Assembly: GCA_030671985.1 (NCBI GenBank)
Contig: DAOVHI010000055.1
Span: forward strand, 1 to 8,810
DNA length: 8,810 bases
Source of the DNA: JAHJDO01 sp030671985 [NCBI: bacterium]
GTDB lineage: Bacteria; JAHJDO01
Direction of reading: 5' to 3'
Shown here one piece after another: positions 1 to 8,810 of the stretch (within the stretch, counting starts at the first letter, position 1; the number at the start of each line of letters is the position of its first letter). The notes below the pieces were generated by a model. It made no database searches. It was not told the origin of the DNA and worked only from the letters and a program-made list of their open reading frames with translations. Made by a program: the position numbers and the translations under genes.

Positions 1-1052
1 ACCAGTGAGTGTTTATATTGCTGGTTCGCATGAAAGCCATCCCCTATATGTTCATATATCGGACTTAAATTTAAACCAGATATTCTGGAGTGGGACTTAA
101 ATTGGTCTATTAATTTCTGATATTCATGGACAGGGTCTTCTTTACCTGAAAATTTATAGAAAAATTTTGTTATATCCTTACCTTTGTCTGCGTAAATAGA
201 AATGACTTTTAAGTAGTCACCGTCTCTGTAGTAAATATCGCCCAAAATCGTTCTGGCTTCCTCGTTTAATTTTGTGTCTGGATAGCTTTGCATTACCTTG
301 GTGCAGGTAGGTTCTATTAAATCCGGCCTTTCGCAAGTCTGGAAAAAGAGAATAAGCCTGTTTAAGGCTGTTGCACTTACCCTGCAATTTGGATGTTGGT
401 TGAGACACTTTTCACAGAACTCTTTTACCATGTCATATTGTTTTTTTCTTTCAAGCAAATCTAAGGTTTTGGTCAGAGCCAGACTGCCGATTTCATTATC
501 GGAGAATTTAGCTATTAGATCCTGACTTACTGAAAATAGATTACCTGGAGTTTTTCCTTTTGAGGCGGTCCGTATTAGAAATGTTATGACGGCGGCGTTT
601 ATCTGTTTACTCATATTTTCTTCTAATATCTTCAACATATGGGCATACCCCCCGCTTGTCCGGACCATAGTTGATAAAACTTCATTGGCAACATATGAAT
701 CCGATGCAATAATTTGCCTGTATATAGCAAATACTTCTTCTCTAGGCTTACCGGCTAACTCCATACAACTGGCTTTTAATATCAGTGTTTCCCAGTCTTC
801 AGGGTCTTCTTTCAACAACTTCTCACAGATAGCCAGAGCTTCTTTATATTTGCCCTGTTCTTTGCATTTTTTTATTTCGGCGGTGAGTGCATCTGCTTCG
901 CGTAAGACTTTCGTGTAATATCTATCCGCCCCAATAATGAACCTGAGATACCCTTTTTGTACAATTAGCCTGGCTAGACATACAACGATAACCACACAAA
1001 GAGCAACAGTAACGATGTTTTTAGTTTTTTTGTTTTCGATTTTTAGCACCAT
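1..1052 (-). CDS. Membrane-anchored TPR-like protein (5' part; C-terminus beyond window)
   Basis: An uninterrupted minus-strand frame runs from an ATG at 1052-1050 to the left edge: 350 codons and no stop, so the gene is truncated by the window. A strong Shine-Dalgarno (GGAGGG, plus positions 1066-1061) lies 8 nt before the ATG and fixes the start. Residues about 12-33 are one hydrophobic helix (NIVTVALCVVIVVCLARLIV) after a lysine-rich start, which suggests a signal anchor with the rest of the protein outside the inner membrane. The remainder is helical and TPR-like: about 66-100 (GKYKEALAICEKLLKEDPED, then a second helix), 190-225 and 246-290, where YPDTKLNEEARTILGDIYY followed by RDGDYLKVISIY resembles the tandem TPRs of outer-membrane assembly and polysaccharide-system proteins. 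No catalytic motif is seen. It is divergent from the sulfate operon, and a functional link is unproven. The frame is certain; the TPR assignment rests on helix pattern and is moderate; the role is unknown. Confidence 0.82.
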   Translation of the reverse strand, partial: MVLKIENKKTKNIVTVALCVVIVVCLARLIVQKGYLRFIIGADRYYTKVLREADALTAEIKKCKEQGKYKEALAICEKLLKEDPEDWETLILKASCMELAGKPREEVFAIYRQIIASDSYVANEVLSTMVRTSGGYAHMLKILEENMSKQINAAVITFLIRTASKGKTPGNLFSVSQDLIAKFSDNEIGSLALTKTLDLLERKKQYDMVKEFCEKCLNQHPNCRVSATALNRLILFFQTCERPDLIEPTCTKVMQSYPDTKLNEEARTILGDIYYRDGDYLKVISIYADKGKDITKFFYKFSGKEDPVHEYQKLIDQFKSHSRISGLNLSPIYEHIGDGFHANQQYKHSL

Positions 1053-1060
1053 TTTCACTA

Positions 1061-1066
1061 CCCTCC
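1061..1066 (-). promoter_or_regulatory. Ribosome binding site of the TPR-like gene
   Basis: Read on the minus strand this is GGAGGG, 8 nt before the ATG at 1052. It is a near-consensus Shine-Dalgarno sequence and decides the start of the left-edge gene. Confidence 0.75.
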
Positions 1067-1126
1067 TTCTCTTTTTTGGTTAATAATCATTAACTTCTCA
1101 AAAACTGTCTAAAATTCTATCATTAA

Positions 1127-1153
1127 TTGATACAAAAATCCACTAAATGTCAA
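1127..1153 (-). promoter_or_regulatory. Weak candidate promoter for the divergent TPR-like gene
   Basis: On the minus strand a perfect -35 TTGACA (1153-1148) is followed after 15 nt by TATCAA (1132-1127), a 4/6 match to a -10 box. The spacer is short. A better -10 (TAGAAT, 1119-1114) is too far away to pair with this -35. The -35 overlaps the first base of the inverted repeats at 1153-1193, so a protein bound there could affect both divergent promoters. The pairing is doubtful. Confidence 0.3.
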
Positions 1154-1193
1154 GCCAAAATAGAAATGTCCTATTTTGGCTAAATAGGACATT
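1153..1193. promoter_or_regulatory. Two overlapping perfect inverted repeats (operator-like) upstream of cysD
   Basis: Repeat A pairs AGCCAAAATAG (1153-1163) with CTATTTTGGCT (1171-1181), 11/11 bases around a 7-nt centre. Repeat B pairs AATGTCCTATTT (1165-1176) with AAATAGGACATT (1182-1193), 12/12 bases around a 5-nt centre. They share positions 1171-1176, so only one could form as a hairpin at a time. The block ends 5 bp before the likely -35 box of the cysD promoter, so in that transcript it is DNA, not RNA, and fits an activator or operator site better than an attenuator. The core of repeat A, ATAG-N7-CTAT, fits the T-N11-A dyad of LysR-type regulators and is centred near -68, where such activators usually bind. 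The dyads are seen directly; the regulator is inferred. Confidence 0.6.
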
Positions 1194-1198
1194 ATCAT

Positions 1199-1227
1199 TT
1201 TGCAAATTTTAGGTTTTATGTGATAAT
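1199..1227 (+). promoter_or_regulatory. Likely sigma70-type promoter of the cysD operon
   Basis: A -35-like TTTGCA (1199-1204, 4/6) and a -10-like GATAAT (1222-1227, 5/6) are separated by exactly 17 nt, and TG at 1219-1220 makes an extended -10. Transcription would begin near 1234-1236, leaving a leader of about 25 nt before the ATG at 1260. The weak -35 with a strong palindrome just upstream is the arrangement expected of an activator-dependent promoter. Confidence 0.5.
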
Positions 1228-1259
1228 CAATCTCAACAGATTAGCGAGCGAAAATTAAA

Positions 1260-2060
1260 ATGAATTACCTGGATAAACTTGAGAGTAAAAGTATTTATAT
1301 AATAAGAGAAGCATATGCACAGTTCAGAAAAGTGGCAATGCTCTGGTCAATAGGAAAGGACTCTACTACTTTATTATGGCTCACAAGAAAGGCTTTTTTC
1401 GGTAAGATTCCATTTCCTGTCATGCATATTGATACAACTTACAAATTTAAAGAGATATATGAGTTTAGAGACAAATATACTAAAAAATGGGCGCTTGATT
1501 TAATTGTTGCAAAAAATGAGAATGCTATTAGTAAAGGTGTGTGTCCTGAAAAAGGAAAGTTCAAATGCTGTAATGAATTAAAAACCAACGCATTAAAAAT
1601 AGCTATTGAAAAACATAAATTCAGAGCTCTTTATCTTGCCATAAGAAGAGATGAACATGGTATTCGCGCAAAAGAAAGAATATTCAGTCCGAGAGATGAA
1701 TGTTTTGAGTGGGATTATAAAAACCAGCCGCCTGAACTATGGGACCAATATAAAACAAAAATAGCTCAGGAAGAACATATAAGAGTACATCCTCTTTTGG
1801 GGTGGAGAGAAATAGATATATGGGAGTATATAAAAAGAGAAAAGATTCCTGCAGTTTCTTTGTATTTTGCAAAGGAGAATAAACGCTATCGCAGTATTGG
1901 CTGTGAAACTTGCTGCAGCCCAATAGAATCAAGTGCAGATACAATGGAGAAGATAATAGAGGAATTGAAGACTTCTAAGATTTCAGAAAGAAGCGGGCGC
2001 GCTCAAGATAAGGAATCTGCGTATATGATGCAGAAGTTAAGATCGTTGGGATACATGTAA
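1260..2060 (+). CDS. cysD: Sulfate adenylyltransferase subunit 2 (CysD)
   Basis: This is the catalytic subunit of two-subunit ATP sulfurylase, which makes adenosine 5'-phosphosulfate (APS) and pyrophosphate from sulfate and ATP in the cytoplasm, coupled to GTP hydrolysis by CysN. The 266-residue protein shows the family pattern from end to end: LESKSIYIIREAYAQF at 7-22, PP-loop SIGKDS at 30-35, PFPVMHIDT at 51-59, RRDEHGIRAKER at 129-140, PPELWDQY at 157-164, IRVHPLLGWREIDIWEYI at 174-191, and a C-terminal SERSGRAQD stretch. It is shorter than E. coli CysD (about 302 residues) because it lacks the insertion before the RSIGCETCC segment; it matches the short form found in many anaerobes. Cysteines cluster at 95, 103-104, 215 and 218-219, as in the short form. 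PAPS reductase (CysH) shares the PP-loop fold but lacks the RRDE/RAKER block. The start is the first in-frame ATG; no good Shine-Dalgarno precedes it. It heads the operon with the permease and cysN. Confidence 0.95.
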   Translation: MNYLDKLESKSIYIIREAYAQFRKVAMLWSIGKDSTTLLWLTRKAFFGKIPFPVMHIDTTYKFKEIYEFRDKYTKKWALDLIVAKNENAISKGVCPEKGKFKCCNELKTNALKIAIEKHKFRALYLAIRRDEHGIRAKERIFSPRDECFEWDYKNQPPELWDQYKTKIAQEEHIRVHPLLGWREIDIWEYIKREKIPAVSLYFAKENKRYRSIGCETCCSPIESSADTMEKIIEELKTSKISERSGRAQDKESAYMMQKLRSLGYM

Positions 2061-2066
2061 GAAGGG
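2061..2066 (+). promoter_or_regulatory. Ribosome binding site deciding the permease start
   Basis: GAAGGG directly follows the cysD stop codon. It is 7 nt from the ATG at 2074 but only 1 nt from the ATG at 2068, so the downstream ATG is the more likely start. Confidence 0.55.
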
Positions 2067-2073
2067 TATGGTA

Positions 2074-2922
2074 ATGCTGGAAATATCAATTGGAATAATT
2101 GTTGTTATAGTCATAGTCGCCTTTTTATGTGAATATATGGATTCAACTTTAGGTATGGGGTATGGGACAACCTTAACACCCGCACTTCTCCTTTTTGGAT
2201 TTGGGCCAATGCAGGTTGTTCCAGTAGTTTTGTTATCAGAACTGATTACTGGACTCTTAGCAGGATTTTTTCATCATAGGGAGGGAAATGTAAATTTTAA
2301 ACTAAGAACAACAAATGTCTCTATAATTATAAGAAAACTAAAATCCCTGGGCTATATTAAAAGTTTTAAAAAGGGAGTGCCTTTACATTTAAAAATAGCC
2401 TTGCTTTTGGCAAGTTGTAGTGTTGTTGGTACAATTGCTGCGGTTTTTGTTGCAGTCAATATTCCCAAGTTCTGGCTAAAGCTTTATATTGGATGTTTGG
2501 TCTTATCAATGGGAATAATTATTACTATTTGTTTGAACAAGAAGTTTAAATTTTCCTGGCATAAAATGATAGGACTGGGTTTAATTGCCTCATTTAACAA
2601 AGGCATGAGCGGCGGAGGTTATGGACCGGTAGTTACAAGCGGACAGATTTTATCCGGAGTAAAGGGAAAGAGCGCCGTGGGGATTACATCCTTAGCTGAG
2701 GGTATAACATGTTTGGTAGGAGTAATCACTTACATGATTCTTTCAAAAAATCCTGTGGATTGGAAATTAGCTCCATACATTATTATTGGGGCTGTATGTT
2801 CAGTCCCGTTTTCTGCTATAAGCGTAAAAAAGATAAGTGAAAAAAAGCTAATATTAGCAATTGCCGTAATTACCATAATTCTGGGTATATTTACTATTAT
2901 AAAGACCTTAAAAACAGTGTGA
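2074..2922 (+). CDS. TauE/SafE-family membrane permease in the sulfate operon
   Basis: A polytopic inner-membrane protein of 282 residues (284 if begun at the ATG at 2068) with about eight hydrophobic helices, near 4-18, 32-45, 47-65, 106-129, 134-153, 202-222, 231-251 and 257-277. The two halves each carry a glycine-rich conserved segment: STLGMGYGTTLTPALLL at 24-40, with HHREGN at 67-72, and SFNKGMSGGGYGPVV at 173-187. This pattern is typical of the TauE/SafE (formerly DUF81) family, whose members export or import sulfite, sulfonates and other small sulfur anions. Lying between cysD and cysN, 13 nt after one and 4 nt before the other, it probably serves sulfate activation, as a sulfate importer or a sulfite outlet. 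Family members near cysDN are often annotated only as sulfite exporters; direction and substrate cannot be read from sequence. The loop at about 80-104 is lysine/arginine-rich and probably cytoplasmic. The 2074 start is chosen for its Shine-Dalgarno spacing. Confidence 0.88.
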   Translation: MLEISIGIIVVIVIVAFLCEYMDSTLGMGYGTTLTPALLLFGFGPMQVVPVVLLSELITGLLAGFFHHREGNVNFKLRTTNVSIIIRKLKSLGYIKSFKKGVPLHLKIALLLASCSVVGTIAAVFVAVNIPKFWLKLYIGCLVLSMGIIITICLNKKFKFSWHKMIGLGLIASFNKGMSGGGYGPVVTSGQILSGVKGKSAVGITSLAEGITCLVGVITYMILSKNPVDWKLAPYIIIGAVCSVPFSAISVKKISEKKLILAIAVITIILGIFTIIKTLKTV

Positions 2923-2926
2923 CACT

Positions 2927-4165
2927 ATGATAGATAGCTCTAATATCAAATTTGTAATCGTCGGGCATGTGGATCACGGCAAGTCTACGCTGATTGGAAG
3001 GCTTCTTTATGATACTAATTCTTTGCCAGCAGATAAAATTGAGGAGATAAGGAAGACTTCTAAGGATTTAGGAAGAGAGACTGAATTTGCCTATCTTCTA
3101 GACCATTTGGAAGAGGAACGTCGACAAGGAATTACAATAGATACTACGCAAGTGTTTTTCAAAACAAATAAGAGACACTATGTGATAATTGATGCTCCGG
3201 GGCATGTAGAGTTTGTAAAGAATATGATTACCGGCGCATCTCAGGCAGAAGCGGCTGTTCTGATTATTGATGTAAAAGAAGGCGTTAAGGAACAGACCAA
3301 ACGCCATGCCTATATCTTATCCTTACTTGGGCTAAATCAAGTTATTGTAACTCTAAATAAAATGGATTTGAGAGATTTTAGAGAAGAAAGATTTAACGAG
3401 GTTAAGAAACAAGTCCAAGAATTTCTTAATTCTATAAATGTAGAACCTACCTTTTATATTCCCATCTGCGCAATAAAGGGTGACAACGTTGTTGAAAAGT
3501 CTAAGAATATGAACTGGTATAAAGGCCCAACTTTTGCAGAAAGCCTGGACACATTGAAAAACAGAGAATCCGCTGAAGATAAAGCTTTGATATTTCCCAT
3601 TCAGGACATCTATAAAATCAATGATAAGAGAATTGCTGTTGGTAAAGTTGAAACAGGCATTATAAGAAAGGCGCAAGCCCTAAAAGTCTTGCCTAGCGGA
3701 CAGATAACAAAGGTTAGATCAATTGAAAAGTTTCAACATAATGTAAATACAGGCTATGCTGGAGAAAGTATAGGCATTACAACATGTGATCCGGTATTTC
3801 TGGCGCGCGGAAATGTTATTTGCGAACCGGAAAACGAACCGGTTTTAACGGATGTGTTTAAAGCCAATATTTTTTGGATGTCAAAGAAGCATCTTAGGAA
3901 AGCGGAAAAGATAGTATTAAAATGCGCCACTCAGGAGACAAGTTGTAAAGTTGAGGAAATATCAAAAAGAATAAACTCTTCCTCTCTGCAAGTTCTTGAA
4001 GAAAATTCTGATAGCCTGAAAAATCTTGAAATAGGCGAGGTTAGAATAAAAACTAAAAATCCGATTTCCATAAAGAAGTTTAGCGAAGTAGAAGCGCTTG
4101 GAAGATTCACTCTTGTTCAGGATGAAGATATCTGTGCCGGCGGAATAATTACAAATTACGTATAG
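2927..4165 (+). CDS. cysN: Sulfate adenylyltransferase subunit 1, GTPase (CysN, compact form)
   Basis: The regulatory GTPase of two-subunit ATP sulfurylase; its GTP hydrolysis drives APS formation by CysD. The 412 residues follow the EF-Tu-like plan: G1 GHVDHGKS (13-20), the CysN-type segment LDHLEEERRQGITID (58-72), G3 DAPGH (89-93), G4 NKMD (144-147), G5-like CAIKGDN (181-187), then two beta-barrel-like domains at about 218-310 and 311-412. The LDxLxxERxxGITID block is shared with EF-1alpha-like proteins, but pairing with cysD and GASQAEAAVLIIDVKEGV (103-120) place it in CysN. It is shorter than E. coli CysN (475 residues) and ends right after the third domain, so there is no C-terminal APS kinase domain as in CysNC fusions. 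The start lies 4 nt past the permease stop with no clear Shine-Dalgarno, which suggests translational coupling. Confidence 0.94.
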   Translation: MIDSSNIKFVIVGHVDHGKSTLIGRLLYDTNSLPADKIEEIRKTSKDLGRETEFAYLLDHLEEERRQGITIDTTQVFFKTNKRHYVIIDAPGHVEFVKNMITGASQAEAAVLIIDVKEGVKEQTKRHAYILSLLGLNQVIVTLNKMDLRDFREERFNEVKKQVQEFLNSINVEPTFYIPICAIKGDNVVEKSKNMNWYKGPTFAESLDTLKNRESAEDKALIFPIQDIYKINDKRIAVGKVETGIIRKAQALKVLPSGQITKVRSIEKFQHNVNTGYAGESIGITTCDPVFLARGNVICEPENEPVLTDVFKANIFWMSKKHLRKAEKIVLKCATQETSCKVEEISKRINSSSLQVLEENSDSLKNLEIGEVRIKTKNPISIKKFSEVEALGRFTLVQDEDICAGGIITNYV

Positions 4166-4195
4166 GAATAAAATTAAGGATTATTTTCATAAGAT

Positions 4196-6319
4196 ATGGC
4201 CAAAGCAGCCGCTATAAAAAATTCATTCTATTACATTGGTCCGGCAATGCCTCTTGTATTTCAATCTCTGGCAACACTTATTGCTCTGTTGCTGGCATTT
4301 TTAGGTGCATTTATCTGGCCTTTTAAACGATTCTTTAGATTCTTTAAAAAAGGAGGTCATATGTATTTTATATTAATGGTCGTAGCACTTATATCAGCTG
4401 TTATCTTTGGTACCTTATGGGCTAAAAACACAGGAAAGAGCAATACGAATTCAAAGGTGGTGATACTGGGTATGGATGGTCTTGACCCCAAAATTTTAGA
4501 GCAGATGATGACAGAAGGCAAGCTCCCTAATTTTTCCAAGCTCAAACAAACAGGCAGCTATCACAGATTGGCCACTACTAATCCTGCGCAGTCACCTGTT
4601 GCCTGGTCATCTTTCATTACCGGTACAAATCCAGGAGGCCACAATATATTTGATTTTCTTCGTCGGGATCCCGAGACTTATATGCCGGATCTCTGTCTGG
4701 CTAAATCCGAACCACCTAAGTACCACTTTAAGCTTGGCAAGATTAAAATTTCTCTGGGACGTTCCAGAATTTCGTCTTATCGGAAGGGCATTCCCTTCTG
4801 GGAAATTTTATCAAAAAATAACATACCTTCTGTCATTCTGCGCTGTCCCATGACCTTCCCACCGGATAAGATATATGGACGAATGCTTTCCGGCTTTGGT
4901 GTGCCTGACCTGCAGGGTACGCAGGGTACTTTTTCATATTATACTACCGAAAATGCCCTTAAACAAGAAACAGGCGGCAAAGTTATCCAGATTAATATAG
5001 ATAGTAACCACACAATAAACACCCTTATTTATGGGCCTATTGATAGTTCTTCAAAAGAATTCACAAACATAACCATGCCGCTTAAATTAAAAATAAATAG
5101 AGACAGAACAAGTGTGACTATCCTGCTTCAGGGAAGACAGGAAGAGATCAAAAAAGGAGAATGGAGTAATTGGTGGAGAGTGAGTTTTAAAACCAATTGG
5201 TTCACTAGAACAGCTTGTATTTGCCGGTTCTATTTAAAGAGCATAGAACCGCATTTCGAATTGTACCTCTCTCCTTTGAACTTTGACCCGGAAAAACCTG
5301 TTTTTTGTATCTCTCATCCTCCTTCCTACTCAAAAAAACTAGCTCAGGAGATAGGACTTTACCATACATTAGGCCAGCCGGGAGAGACTTGGGCGCTTAA
5401 TTCAGAAAGAATTGATGAACAAACCGCCATTGAGCAGTATTCCCTGGTTCTCAGGGAAACAGAACATATGCTCTTTACAGAACTTGGAAAATTTCAATCC
5501 GGAGTCCTCTTCTGTTATTTCGGAATCTCAGATATAATCCAGCATATGTTCTGGCGGTTCATGGATCAGGAACATCCTATGTATAACGAAGCCCTGATCT
5601 TAAAATACAAAGACGTTATCCCGAACATGTACAGGCGCATGGATGAAATACTTGGCAAGGTTATAGATCAAACAAGTAAAGATACTACTATTATTGTTCT
5701 TTCTGACCATGGATTTGGTACTTTTCGCCGTGCTGTGCATCTAAACAGTTGGCTGCGCAAAAATGATTTACTGCAATTTAAGCCCTCATACAAACCAACA
5801 GAAAATAATGAGCTCTTCTCAGGAATAGACTGGCAAAAGACAAAGGCATATGCAGTAGGTTTGGGCGGAATATACATAAACCAGAGAGGAAGGGAAAGTC
5901 AAGGGATTGTAGAGCCTGGCATGGAGGCAGAAAAGCTAAAGTCAGAGATTGTAGAAAAATTACAGGACTTGATCGATCCCAAAACAGGTACTAAAGCTAT
6001 CCGAAAGGTCTATAAGAAAGAAGAAATATTTTATGGCCCTCATACACAAAATGCGCCGGACATGGTGGTCGGTTTCAATATCGGACATCGTGTATCATGG
6101 CAAACAGCATTAGGCGGAACACCTACAGAAATATTTGAAGACAATCGTAAAAAATGGAGCGGAGATCACATATTCGACCCTGCTCTTGTACCGGGTATTC
6201 TGTTAATCAGCAAAAAATCAAAATTAACCAATCCCAGGATCATAGACCTTGCTCCTACCATTCTTCAGTTGTTTGAAATAAAAACTCCCAAAGAAATGGA
6301 TGGCAAGCCGCTTTTATGA
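4196..6319 (+). CDS. Membrane-anchored alkaline phosphatase-superfamily phosphodiesterase (type I phosphodiesterase/nucleotide pyrophosphatase-like)
   Basis: A 707-residue protein of the alkaline phosphatase superfamily. The seven positions expected of the two-metal NPP-type site appear in order: D94 (GMDG), S133 in QSPVAWSSF as candidate nucleophile (Thr in many relatives), D446 and H450 (SDIIQH), D504-H505 (SDHGFG) and H658 (SGDHIFDP). The D446-H450 spacing of +4 matches bacterial NPP. About 150-440 holds a large cap-like insertion; substrate is unknown, and a phosphodiester or phosphonate ester headgroup is likelier than sulfate because the formylglycine C/S-x-P-x-R sulfatase signature is absent. 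Two hydrophobic segments precede the catalytic domain: about 17-42, followed by a basic patch KRFFRFFKK, and about 57-74. An internal ATG at 4361 (residue 56) has a perfect Shine-Dalgarno and would leave one anchor, the usual plan for this family, whereas the ATG at 4196, right after an in-frame stop, has only AAGGA 15 nt away. Either start, or both, may be used. It follows cysN by 30 nt. Confidence 0.88.
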   Translation: MAKAAAIKNSFYYIGPAMPLVFQSLATLIALLLAFLGAFIWPFKRFFRFFKKGGHMYFILMVVALISAVIFGTLWAKNTGKSNTNSKVVILGMDGLDPKILEQMMTEGKLPNFSKLKQTGSYHRLATTNPAQSPVAWSSFITGTNPGGHNIFDFLRRDPETYMPDLCLAKSEPPKYHFKLGKIKISLGRSRISSYRKGIPFWEILSKNNIPSVILRCPMTFPPDKIYGRMLSGFGVPDLQGTQGTFSYYTTENALKQETGGKVIQINIDSNHTINTLIYGPIDSSSKEFTNITMPLKLKINRDRTSVTILLQGRQEEIKKGEWSNWWRVSFKTNWFTRTACICRFYLKSIEPHFELYLSPLNFDPEKPVFCISHPPSYSKKLAQEIGLYHTLGQPGETWALNSERIDEQTAIEQYSLVLRETEHMLFTELGKFQSGVLFCYFGISDIIQHMFWRFMDQEHPMYNEALILKYKDVIPNMYRRMDEILGKVIDQTSKDTTIIVLSDHGFGTFRRAVHLNSWLRKNDLLQFKPSYKPTENNELFSGIDWQKTKAYAVGLGGIYINQRGRESQGIVEPGMEAEKLKSEIVEKLQDLIDPKTGTKAIRKVYKKEEIFYGPHTQNAPDMVVGFNIGHRVSWQTALGGTPTEIFEDNRKKWSGDHIFDPALVPGILLISKKSKLTNPRIIDLAPTILQLFEIKTPKEMDGKPLL
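4351..4357 (+). promoter_or_regulatory. Internal Shine-Dalgarno for an alternative phosphodiesterase start
   Basis: AGGAGGT is followed after 3 nt (CAT) by an in-frame ATG at 4361, codon 56 of the longer frame. It is a full-consensus ribosome binding site, though close to the ATG. Initiation here would give a 652-residue protein beginning MYFILMVVAL with a single N-terminal anchor. Confidence 0.5.
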
Positions 6320-6339
6320 CATACTAAAGATACTTACTG

Positions 6340-6354
6340 TTCTATTATATAGAA
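6340..6354. repeat. Short AT-rich inverted repeat between the two phosphoesterase genes
   Basis: TTCTAT and ATAGAA, 6/6 bases around a 3-nt centre, lie in the 52-nt gap before the Shine-Dalgarno of the next gene. There is no GC stem and no following T-run, so it is not an intrinsic terminator. It may be a weak RNA hairpin or chance in AT-rich DNA. Confidence 0.3.
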
Positions 6355-6371
6355 ATATAGGAGACTAAAAT

Positions 6372-7397
6372 ATGAAACAGAAAGCACATGCATGGGTTGC
6401 CTTAAGGGCATTCAAATTAATAGATGATTTAGGAAAAGCGCCAAAGTTAGTTGAACTGCTTTCATGGTATCTTTCTGATGCTTGGGAAGGCGCATGGCTG
6501 CCGGATACGCTTATAGTAGATATGAGTTATGGCCATATTTTTAAGATGGATAGCGATCCTGCAAAAATTGGAGAGAAAGTAATAGGAGACAGATTTAAGA
6601 TTTCTTATAGAGAACTTGATAGAAAGCTGAGAGGAAAACGCCTTTGCCTGAACTATATTAAGGATTCAGAGGAATTAAAGAAACCATATAAGTCCCCTGA
6701 TGAAGGCGGGCAGCTACCGCAAAGAGTAATTGCTCTAAGTCATTCTATAAGCGACATGTTAAAGTTAAGCGATTTTCCATTGGCGCTTTATGCCAGAAAG
6801 AAAACACCAAGGGCTTATAAAAAAGACCTCTCTGCTCAAAATATTCAAAGTCTTTCCTTGTCTCCAAATTTCTCGGCAAGACATATAGCCCTTACCTTTT
6901 TCCTTCTCTCTCATTATATTTGCGATGCTCACATGCCATTACATTGTGATTTTAGGGATTTTAGTAGCAGGTATTCCAAGAGAAGGCTGCCTACAAAACT
7001 TCATCCCTCTATTGAGAAGAAATGGGAAACCTGTTTTCCAGATAAAGATGTGTTAGCCCTTCATAAATACAGTAAAATCTCAATAGATAAGGCAGTGGCA
7101 AAATTACCCAGAGGCTCTTTGCTTGAAATAGACAGCAATAAAAAATATGCCTTAAGTACAAAGAAAAGACAATTATCCACTATTAAGCATAACGAAGAAA
7201 GAGAAATGAATTATGTAACAAAGGTTTCTTATGCAGCAGCAAGAAAATGGATTGATAAACCTTATAAAGATGTGAATGAATTAATAAGAAAAGATTCTGA
7301 AGAATTTAAAGAAGTAACCAACTTCATATTCCATGATGCAGTTGAGTGCGTGGCAAGAGTCTGGCTAAAGGCATGGGAGAGATTTGTTGGCAGATGA
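6372..7397 (+). CDS. Zinc-dependent phospholipase C / S1-P1 nuclease-like protein, no signal peptide
   Basis: A 341-residue, largely helical protein with the metal-ligand pattern of the zinc-dependent phospholipase C and S1/P1 nuclease fold. The signature is HYICDAHMPLH at 181-191: H181, D185 and H191 have the +4 and +10 spacing of H118/D122/H128 in Bacillus PC-PLC and H116/D120/H126 in P1 nuclease. The other ligands appear in order: H6, D45 (WLPD), H55 (YGH), then H211 and E215 (LHPSIE, the +4 H/E pair of PC-PLC; P1 has H/D). The H6-D45 spacing equals that of P1. These families are normally secreted and use the amino group of mature Trp1 as a zinc ligand; here no signal peptide exists and H6 is five residues from the initiator Met. 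Hydrolysis of phospholipid headgroups or nucleic acid phosphodiesters is possible; the substrate is unknown. An AGGAG at 6359-6363, 8 nt upstream, supports the start. Residues 230-310 are lysine-rich and unlike the family. Last gene of the operon, 52 nt after the phosphodiesterase. Confidence 0.8.
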   Translation: MKQKAHAWVALRAFKLIDDLGKAPKLVELLSWYLSDAWEGAWLPDTLIVDMSYGHIFKMDSDPAKIGEKVIGDRFKISYRELDRKLRGKRLCLNYIKDSEELKKPYKSPDEGGQLPQRVIALSHSISDMLKLSDFPLALYARKKTPRAYKKDLSAQNIQSLSLSPNFSARHIALTFFLLSHYICDAHMPLHCDFRDFSSRYSKRRLPTKLHPSIEKKWETCFPDKDVLALHKYSKISIDKAVAKLPRGSLLEIDSNKKYALSTKKRQLSTIKHNEEREMNYVTKVSYAAARKWIDKPYKDVNELIRKDSEEFKEVTNFIFHDAVECVARVWLKAWERFVGR

Positions 7398-7448
7398 TTG
7401 AGAAGCTTTTAAATAGGTTAAGTGATTGGGAGTGAAAAGATTAGGAAA

Positions 7449-7643
7449 ATAAAGGGACAAAAAATTATAATTTCTTAATACCCTACTCTTCCACTTTAGC
7501 CAGGAAGAGCACAAAAGATAGATAGCAAGGATTTGCGGAAGAATATGGGCAAGGGTGCATAGGTTCTATGAGACTCAGGTGGGATGTGGACACGTGGCAG
7601 TTCAAGAATAAAGTGGGACAAATATTTTGAGTTATTTCAATCA
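7449..7643. repeat. Degenerate direct repeat (AATAAAG..GGGACAAA) about 160 bp apart
   Basis: AATAAAGGGACAAA (7449-7462) recurs as AATAAAGTGGGACAAA (near 7609-7624), with weaker similarity for roughly 20 further bases on the downstream side (both continue AT-rich with shared T-runs). GGGACA-type ends around short non-coding segments recall repeat elements mobilised by REP-type Y1 transposases, but no transposase lies in the window. Only the two-copy similarity is observed; the mobile-element reading is speculative. Confidence 0.3.
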
Positions 7644-7709
7644 TGCTAGGACTTTTAAAACCCCTTAATCCTCTGTTGAAAAATAAAAAAAGCATATGAT
7701 TGATAGTTA

Positions 7710-7718
7710 TGATACAAT
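7710..7718 (+). promoter_or_regulatory. Candidate extended -10 promoter of the SIR2 gene
   Basis: TGATACAAT is an extended -10 (TGn plus TACAAT, 5/6). There is no good -35 at 17 nt, which an extended -10 can tolerate. Transcription would begin near 7725, leaving a leader of about 40 nt with a weak AAAGAG ribosome site (7751-7756) before the ATG at 7764. An alternative pairing, TTGATA (7700-7705) with TATTAT (7721-7726), has a short 15-nt spacer. Confidence 0.35.
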
Positions 7719-7763
7719 GTTATTATATGAATATAAACCAATTTTTATACAAAGAGAAAAAAT

Positions 7764-8810
7764 ATGGGTAATACGCACGATTCAATAAGACACTTAGAAT
7801 ATCTTAGACAATCATTGTCACAAGATAAAAAGCCAATAGGTTTTTTTATATCTTCTGGGTGTCCTCTTGCTGTATCAATACCTGATGGTAAAGGACCTTT
7901 AATCCCTGATGTTGCAGGGCTTACTAAATGGGTAAATAGTGAATTAAAAAAAGACGACAAATATAAACTTCTTATAGCTGAATTAGTAAAAGCAAAGAAA
8001 AACATTAATAATATTGAAGATATTTTAAGTTTTATCAGAGGATTATTGCAAGTAGCAAAAGGTGGTGATGTTAGAGGATTTAACGAAAAGGATCTAATCG
8101 CTTTAGAAACAAAAGTCTGTGAAAGAATAGTTGAAAAAATGAATGTTCCATTGCCTAATCAAGAAACTCCATTTCATGAACTTACTACGTGGATAAGTTC
8201 TATAGATCGGGAAATTCCAATTGAAATCTTTACTACAAACTATGATATGTTAATAGAACAGGCATTAGAAGATATAGAAGTCCCATATTTCGATGGTTTT
8301 GTTGGATCCAGAAGATCCTTTTTTGATTTAAGAGCTGTAACGGATAATTTAATACCTAAACATTGGACAAGATTATGGAAGATACATGGATCAATTAACT
8401 GGTATCAGGACGGACCTGAAGGTCAAGAAAAAGTTTATAGATCTTCTGAAATCAAAAAAGATGCTTCACATCTAATTCATCCATCTCATTTAAAATATGA
8501 ACAAAGTCGAAAAATGCCATACCTAGCATTAATTGACCAATTGAGTAAGTTTATCAGACAAAAATCTTCTCTATTAATAATTTCCGGTTATTCCTTTTCG
8601 GATGAGCATTTGAATTATACTATAACAGATTCTCTTAAAGCAAATCCTACGGCAATGGTCTTAGGTTTAATGTACGAATCTTTTTATGTTAAGAATGACA
8701 AGGATGAATTAGTTGCAAGATACCCCAAAGCATACAAATTGACAGAGAGTCAACATAATTTGAATCTATGGACTTTTGATAAAGCAATTATAGGAACTAA
8801 TACAGGTGAT
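7764..8810 (+). CDS. SIR2-domain protein, probable anti-phage NADase (5' part; C-terminus beyond window)
   Basis: An open frame of 349 codons runs from the ATG at 7764 to the right edge without a stop, so the 3' end is missing. The protein has the bacterial SIR2-like (SIR2_2 type) pattern: a nucleotide-binding loop at about 25-53 (GFFISSGCPLAVSIPD, then PLIPDVAGLT), FTTNYDMLIEQALE at 156-169 with candidate catalytic N159, KIHGSINW at 206-213 with candidate catalytic H208, and ISGYSFSDEHLN at 273-284, a hallmark of SIR2-like defence proteins. Such proteins hydrolyse NAD+ after phage infection in systems such as SIR2-HerA, Dsr and SIR2-pAgo; a stand-alone SIR2 is also possible. The binding loop reads ISSGC where relatives commonly have a GAG-type motif, so NAD binding may differ. 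No signal peptide; cytoplasmic. Weak ribosome site AAAGAG 7 nt before the ATG. It has its own upstream promoter candidate and is unrelated to the operon before it. Family call firm, system type inferred. Confidence 0.85.
   Translation, partial: MGNTHDSIRHLEYLRQSLSQDKKPIGFFISSGCPLAVSIPDGKGPLIPDVAGLTKWVNSELKKDDKYKLLIAELVKAKKNINNIEDILSFIRGLLQVAKGGDVRGFNEKDLIALETKVCERIVEKMNVPLPNQETPFHELTTWISSIDREIPIEIFTTNYDMLIEQALEDIEVPYFDGFVGSRRSFFDLRAVTDNLIPKHWTRLWKIHGSINWYQDGPEGQEKVYRSSEIKKDASHLIHPSHLKYEQSRKMPYLALIDQLSKFIRQKSSLLIISGYSFSDEHLNYTITDSLKANPTAMVLGLMYESFYVKNDKDELVARYPKAYKLTESQHNLNLWTFDKAIIGTNTGD

Follow-up and report, generated by a model that had tools for sequence, protein, structure and literature searches.

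We find that the right end of the window, i.e. the whole 8,810-nucleotide stretch of DNA analysed here, very probably encodes the SIR2 subunit of a SIR2-HerA anti-phage system, and that the gene was probably gained horizontally. The gene is real yet ordinary, of a kind already known, and it is cut by the assembly. The better lead lies in its relatives: nearly all of them have a small third gene, encoding a KTSC protein, that has been little noticed so far. The coordinates of all features are collected in Table 1.

Table 1. Coordinates of the features in the window and, where a locus is named, in homologous loci.
Feature	Position	Strand	Basis or remark
5′ 349 codons of a SIR2-family gene (very probably the SIR2 subunit of SIR2-HerA)	7764..8810	+	Reading frame, Pfam, PADLOC, structures
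Nucleotide-binding loop GFFISSGCPL, codons 26-35	7839..7868	+	Ser31 codon TCT; Ala in 33/36 homologues
FTTNYD, codons 156-161	8229..8246	+	Asn159, Tyr160 and Asp161 invariant
KIHGSINW, codons 206-213	8379..8402	+	His208 invariant
GYSFSDEHLN, codons 275-284	8586..8615	+	Motif reading and alignment
Stretch upstream of the SIR2 gene, 366 bp	7398..7763	+	Single copy; neither direct repeats nor an RNA family match
KTSC coding regions	L008:9092-9298; L015:9074-9280; L009:4764-4970; 30 further loci		Profile search
Fourth gene	L009:4976-5998; 11 further loci		Near SIR2-HerA-KTSC

The SIR2 frame opens with an ATG and runs for 349 residues without a stop up to base 8810. With a length of exactly 8810 bases, the contig stops there, and the frame therefore lacks its 3′ end. 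The three SIR2 motifs and the run past the right edge, as described in the sequence-only reading, were recovered at the positions given in Table 1. In Pfam, the protein matches SIR2_2 (PF13289) with an E-value of 1.2e-18, far beyond chance; up to an E-value of 1 no further family is matched, and the classical sirtuin SIR2 model is not among the matches. SIR2_2 is likewise the only Pfam family in a full-length relative (L009). Against NCBIfam NF042942 (SIR2_antiphage) the protein scores 62.6 bits, compared with a curated cut-off of 500 bits, and thus falls outside this subfamily.

The PADLOC model PDLC04093, whose name reads just 'SIR2', covers residues 1-348 of 349 at an E-value of 1.8e-139. 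PADLOC also reports weaker matches to Aga_SIR2 models (best E-value 1.1e-27), and SIR2 domains occur in SPARSA, Thoeris and DSR-type systems, as described in the accessible text of PMC10952713. One could therefore conceive of a partner other than HerA, such as an Argonaute (SPARSA) or a TIR protein (Thoeris), or of a single large DSR-type protein. We regard this as extremely unlikely: the best plain SIR2 model is more than 100 orders of magnitude better than Aga_SIR2, the 14 full-length relatives, at 393-440 amino acids, are too short to house a large extra sensor domain, and it is HerA, not pAgo, that lies 3′ of SIR2 in every relative analysed.

The pairing with HerA is also favoured by structure. 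The best solved protein by sequence is 8w9l, a SIR2/HerA entry, with an E-value of 1.3e-93 over residues 4-348. The structure model of the window protein is of middling confidence (mean pLDDT 69.8) and its TM-scores to the best Foldseek matches are about 0.55; the top nine matches are all chains of the SIR2/HerA entries 8wld, 8w9l and 8woc. Next come 8yhx and the SIR2-HerA entries of E. coli, and then ThsA, DSR2 and SPARSA.

Is the nucleotide-binding loop of the protein a divergent one? It had been remarked that this loop, at residues 29-33, reads ISSGC instead of a GAG-type motif. The letters are as read, but 'instead of' overstates the difference. The loop alignment proposed beforehand, now run on 36 homologues, places an alanine at the position of Ser31 in 33 sequences and a serine in L095, the remaining two having a gap there; Gly32 is kept in each of the 35 sequences that are not gapped at its column, the window protein counted. 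Asn159, Tyr160, Asp161 and His208 do not vary in any of the 37 sequences, again with the window counted. Because the change from alanine to serine is the sole substitution in the loop and the catalytic set is kept, we read ISSGC as a GAG-type loop with a conservative change. The idea of a divergent NAD loop was rejected on this lone substitution, paralleled in L095, and neither a divergent subgroup nor altered NAD binding is borne out. The pocket formed by N, Y, D and H is common to DSR2, ThsA and SIR2-HerA in the part of PMC11263360 accessible to us; by motif, Asn159-Tyr160-Asp161 of FTTNYD match the N-Y-D of DSR2 and ThsA described there, and His208 is equivalent to H171 of DSR2 and H152 of ThsA. 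Judged by the alignment, the four catalytic residues of the window protein are intact.

The gene order was read from 36 homologous loci. A genome collection provided 16, of which L022 and L023, matching part of SIR2 alone, were dropped, leaving 14. Ten plasmid loci were hand-picked from the 20 matches listed out of 388 records, and 12 loci were contributed by 395 evenly sampled genomes from the phylum of L008 (Ulvibacterium marinum), in which matches were found in 12 genomes at 13 places and L008 itself was removed. Profiles for HerA (14 proteins), KTSC (13 sequences, from 11 of the 14 collection loci, L031 and L032) and a fourth gene (10 proteins) were run on all 36. HerA lies directly 3′ of SIR2 in each of them, including 22 loci outside the building of the HerA profile, and PADLOC HerA models match all four HerA proteins scanned from among the 36. 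From this order in the relatives it follows that the place of HerA in the window would be just past the contig end. The earlier proposal of a SIR2 defence gene of the HerA-pairing kind is thus upheld by sequence, structure and gene order.

We also considered that the partner was lost and that the gene is a relic or a stand-alone effector. Indeed, neither HerA nor KTSC was found elsewhere in the assembly (152 contigs, 92% complete): the best match to the HerA of a relative has an E-value of 0.216 over 39 residues, the DUF87 profile gives five matches, none over the cut-off, and KTSC gives none. The five DUF87 matches were taken for other P-loop proteins rather than HerA. Damaged relatives exist as well, since two of the 16 collection loci (L022, L023) match SIR2 only partly, two of the 36 (L055, L090) have a shortened HerA match and are without KTSC, and the HerA match of L093 is divided between two frames. 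Against this, all 349 codons are open, the catalytic residues are intact, and the position that HerA takes up without exception in the homologous loci is here beyond the readable sequence. An orphan or decaying SIR2 gene is therefore unlikely, and we continue with a SIR2-HerA gene interrupted by the contig end.

The readable surroundings of the gene on this contig, all of them upstream, lend no support to the edge of a defence island that had been expected from the sequence. Pfam was run on the window's other genes apart from the frame at 3-1058, and the neighbours scanned are of the sulfate-assimilation, TauE-type exporter and phosphodiesterase types, with one of no clear family. The sulfate-assimilation-type cluster (1260-4165) encodes a PAPS-reductase-domain protein, the TauE-type exporter and an EF-Tu-like GTPase. 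It is followed by the phosphodiesterase-type protein at 4196-6319 and by a 341-amino-acid protein at 6372-7397 with weak similarity to S1/P1 nuclease and zinc-dependent phospholipase C, under both cut-offs. The 366-bp stretch upstream of SIR2 is present as described, but the repeat-like content ascribed to it is not: the repeat search gave no direct repeats and just one 12-base A+T palindrome, and a second copy was not found in the genome assembly. Intergenic repeats were therefore dropped as a candidate. Neither a tRNA nor an Rfam match at the gathering threshold was found anywhere in the window.

How did the gene reach this genome? The SIR2 gene was not found in four congeners, one of them just 62% complete, and neither were the two neighbouring proteins at 4196-6319 and 6372-7397. 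Among 59 genomes searched, the window's own counted, only two remote SIR2 proteins turned up besides that of the window. Measured against a baseline drawn from 20 of the 152 contigs, the SIR2 stretch has a GC content of 0.317, compared with a mean of 0.382 in the sampled genome windows and with no lower value in 300 random windows, and only 1% of the 300 windows fall below it in tetranucleotide correlation. Composition is ordinary in two stretches of 4 kb from bases 1-7397. The low GC content and the odd tetranucleotide usage would fit a recent acquisition. The nearest relatives are mainly from Bacteroidota (12 of 14, going by their record titles), and homologues are found in 388 plasmid records, 49 of which cover at least 80% of the query and 171 of which are predicted to be conjugative. 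Given these relatives and the frequency of plasmid homologues, horizontal acquisition is the natural reading and, in our view, the most likely one. The contig may also have been mis-binned, because the congeners are without the two neighbouring proteins as well as without the SIR2 gene. In viral contigs, none of 13 pattern matches is a relative, and phage records gave three distant matches covering 40-46% of the query.

Is KTSC a chance neighbour of HerA? A KTSC coding region lies directly 3′ of HerA in 33 of the 36 loci. The other three are L055 and L090, with their short HerA matches, and L087, where the contig ends 181 bases past HerA. Among the 20 loci outside the building of the KTSC profile (12 sampled and eight plasmid loci), 17 carry it. 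L008 and L015, two of the 33, have HerA and KTSC in a single reading frame, with KTSC at the HerA C-terminus, and Pfam confirms KTSC in all eight candidates scanned, both fused proteins counted. By a comparison of coordinates made by hand, the SIR2-HerA locus holds the best KTSC match of the genome in all 14 genomes of the first set; eight of these have no other match and six have one weaker match elsewhere. Of 14 control genomes, 13 have no KTSC match. This distribution over loci, genomes and controls leads us to conclude that KTSC is no chance neighbour of HerA. In the literature within reach of our search, which stopped short of the primary SIR2-HerA papers, only PMC9503650, in its accessible text, ties KTSC to HerA.

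A sub-branch of the loci carries a fourth gene. Its product of about 341-345 amino acids was found in 12 of the 36 loci (L009-L015, L018, L021, L031, L086 and L088); in 11 of them the gene follows KTSC immediately or at a distance of no more than about 100 bases, and in L018 other genes lie between. G131-D132, E148-C149-K150, Q176 and Q181 are invariant across the 12 closely alike sequences. The arrangement GD...ECK is one that we take to be the pattern of PD-(D/E)XK nucleases, and on this motif the protein is a putative PD-(D/E)XK nuclease. None of three members scanned has a Pfam match. In PHROGs one member has a weak RusA-like match (E-value 9e-4) and a second has none; in PADLOC one member gives nothing and another gives a CARF/HEPN model at an E-value of 0.055. 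The comparison with solved structures returned nothing useful (best E-value 0.79), and the structure model, with a mean pLDDT of 44.1, is too poor for fold comparison. Where the 341-amino-acid gene is missing, L008 (9442-10713) and L017 (4884-6149) share a different gene, whose product starts MNEIICPNCKK. A gene annotated DUF2130 is found nearby in L033.

The fourth gene bears on what the sirtuin does. In the text of PMC9503650 accessible to us, sirtuin and endoDNase substitute for each other beside HerA, and on such genomic grounds HerA-linked sirtuins are proposed there to ADP-ribosylate DNA rather than to drain NAD. The 12 loci that carry both SIR2 and the putative nuclease seem to go against this either-or view: with the two genes in one neighbourhood, they would, if the fourth protein is a nuclease, not be mutually exclusive in this branch. 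Moreover, SIR2-HerA is counted among the NAD-hydrolysing systems in the portion of PMC11263360 at hand. We therefore consider ADP-ribosylation of DNA very unlikely and keep NAD hydrolysis as the working activity of the sirtuin.

For the broad branch we speculate that SIR2-HerA is a three-gene system, in which KTSC is a nucleic-acid-binding, standing part of the HerA engine that probably recognises or gates the substrate; the sub-branch would add the nuclease-like fourth protein and could cut DNA as well as drain NAD. The chances of this proposal are, in our estimate, evenly balanced.

How would the window system work? In the accessible part of PMC12198126, a SIR2 dodecamer assembles with a hexamer of HerA, whose binding opens the NAD pocket. 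By analogy, the SIR2 subunits of the window system would build a dodecamer that docks the hexameric HerA ATPase, and an encounter of HerA with invading phage DNA, the presumed trigger, would open the NAD pocket of SIR2. The window copy, provided that it is complete and active, as we presume, would then use Asn159 and His208 as a pair to hydrolyse NAD+, and the infected cell would halt before phage maturation. Past the contig end we would expect the last 50-60 residues of SIR2, directly followed by HerA and then by a KTSC protein of about 70 amino acids, possibly a nucleic-acid-binding adaptor on HerA. Loss of NAD is presumably the main effector step of the window system; it may be neither the sole nor the main one, because the same portion of PMC12198126 also reports that SIR2-HerA acts as a nuclease and an ATPase and degrades phage genes.

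In summary, with the window gene the SIR2-HerA carriers gain a further member, from a lineage in which SIR2 is absent from the four congeners examined. The KTSC protein, a by-product of this analysis, matters more than the window gene: present in nearly all loci and twice fused to HerA, it is a concrete candidate for the sensor or adaptor so far missing from SIR2-HerA, a system whose activation switch is given as unclear in PMC12198126, as far as its accessible text goes.

Compared with known systems, the window protein is closest in fold to the solved SIR2-HerA complexes (8w9l, 8wld and 8woc), whereas its own partner gene would lie past the readable sequence. PsSIR2 (8w9l) has FTTNYD in common with it and reads KLHGSINW where the window reads KIHGSINW, and its loop AAGCP carries an alanine where SSGCP of the window carries a serine. 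The E. coli SIR2-HerA or Nezha system (8su9, 8sub and 8j4u) shares a SIR2 core with FTTNYD and KLHGS (E-value 1.6e-13) and is found among the fold matches, but it represents a distant branch, with a sequence alignment over residues 154-298 alone. The SIR2-HerA-KTSC operons of Bacteroidota, e.g. that of Ulvibacterium marinum (L008), are complete, whereas the window holds only most of SIR2; with a SIR2 identity to the window of 59-71% in the nearest 12 of 14 relatives, the window gene presumably comes from the same kind of operon.
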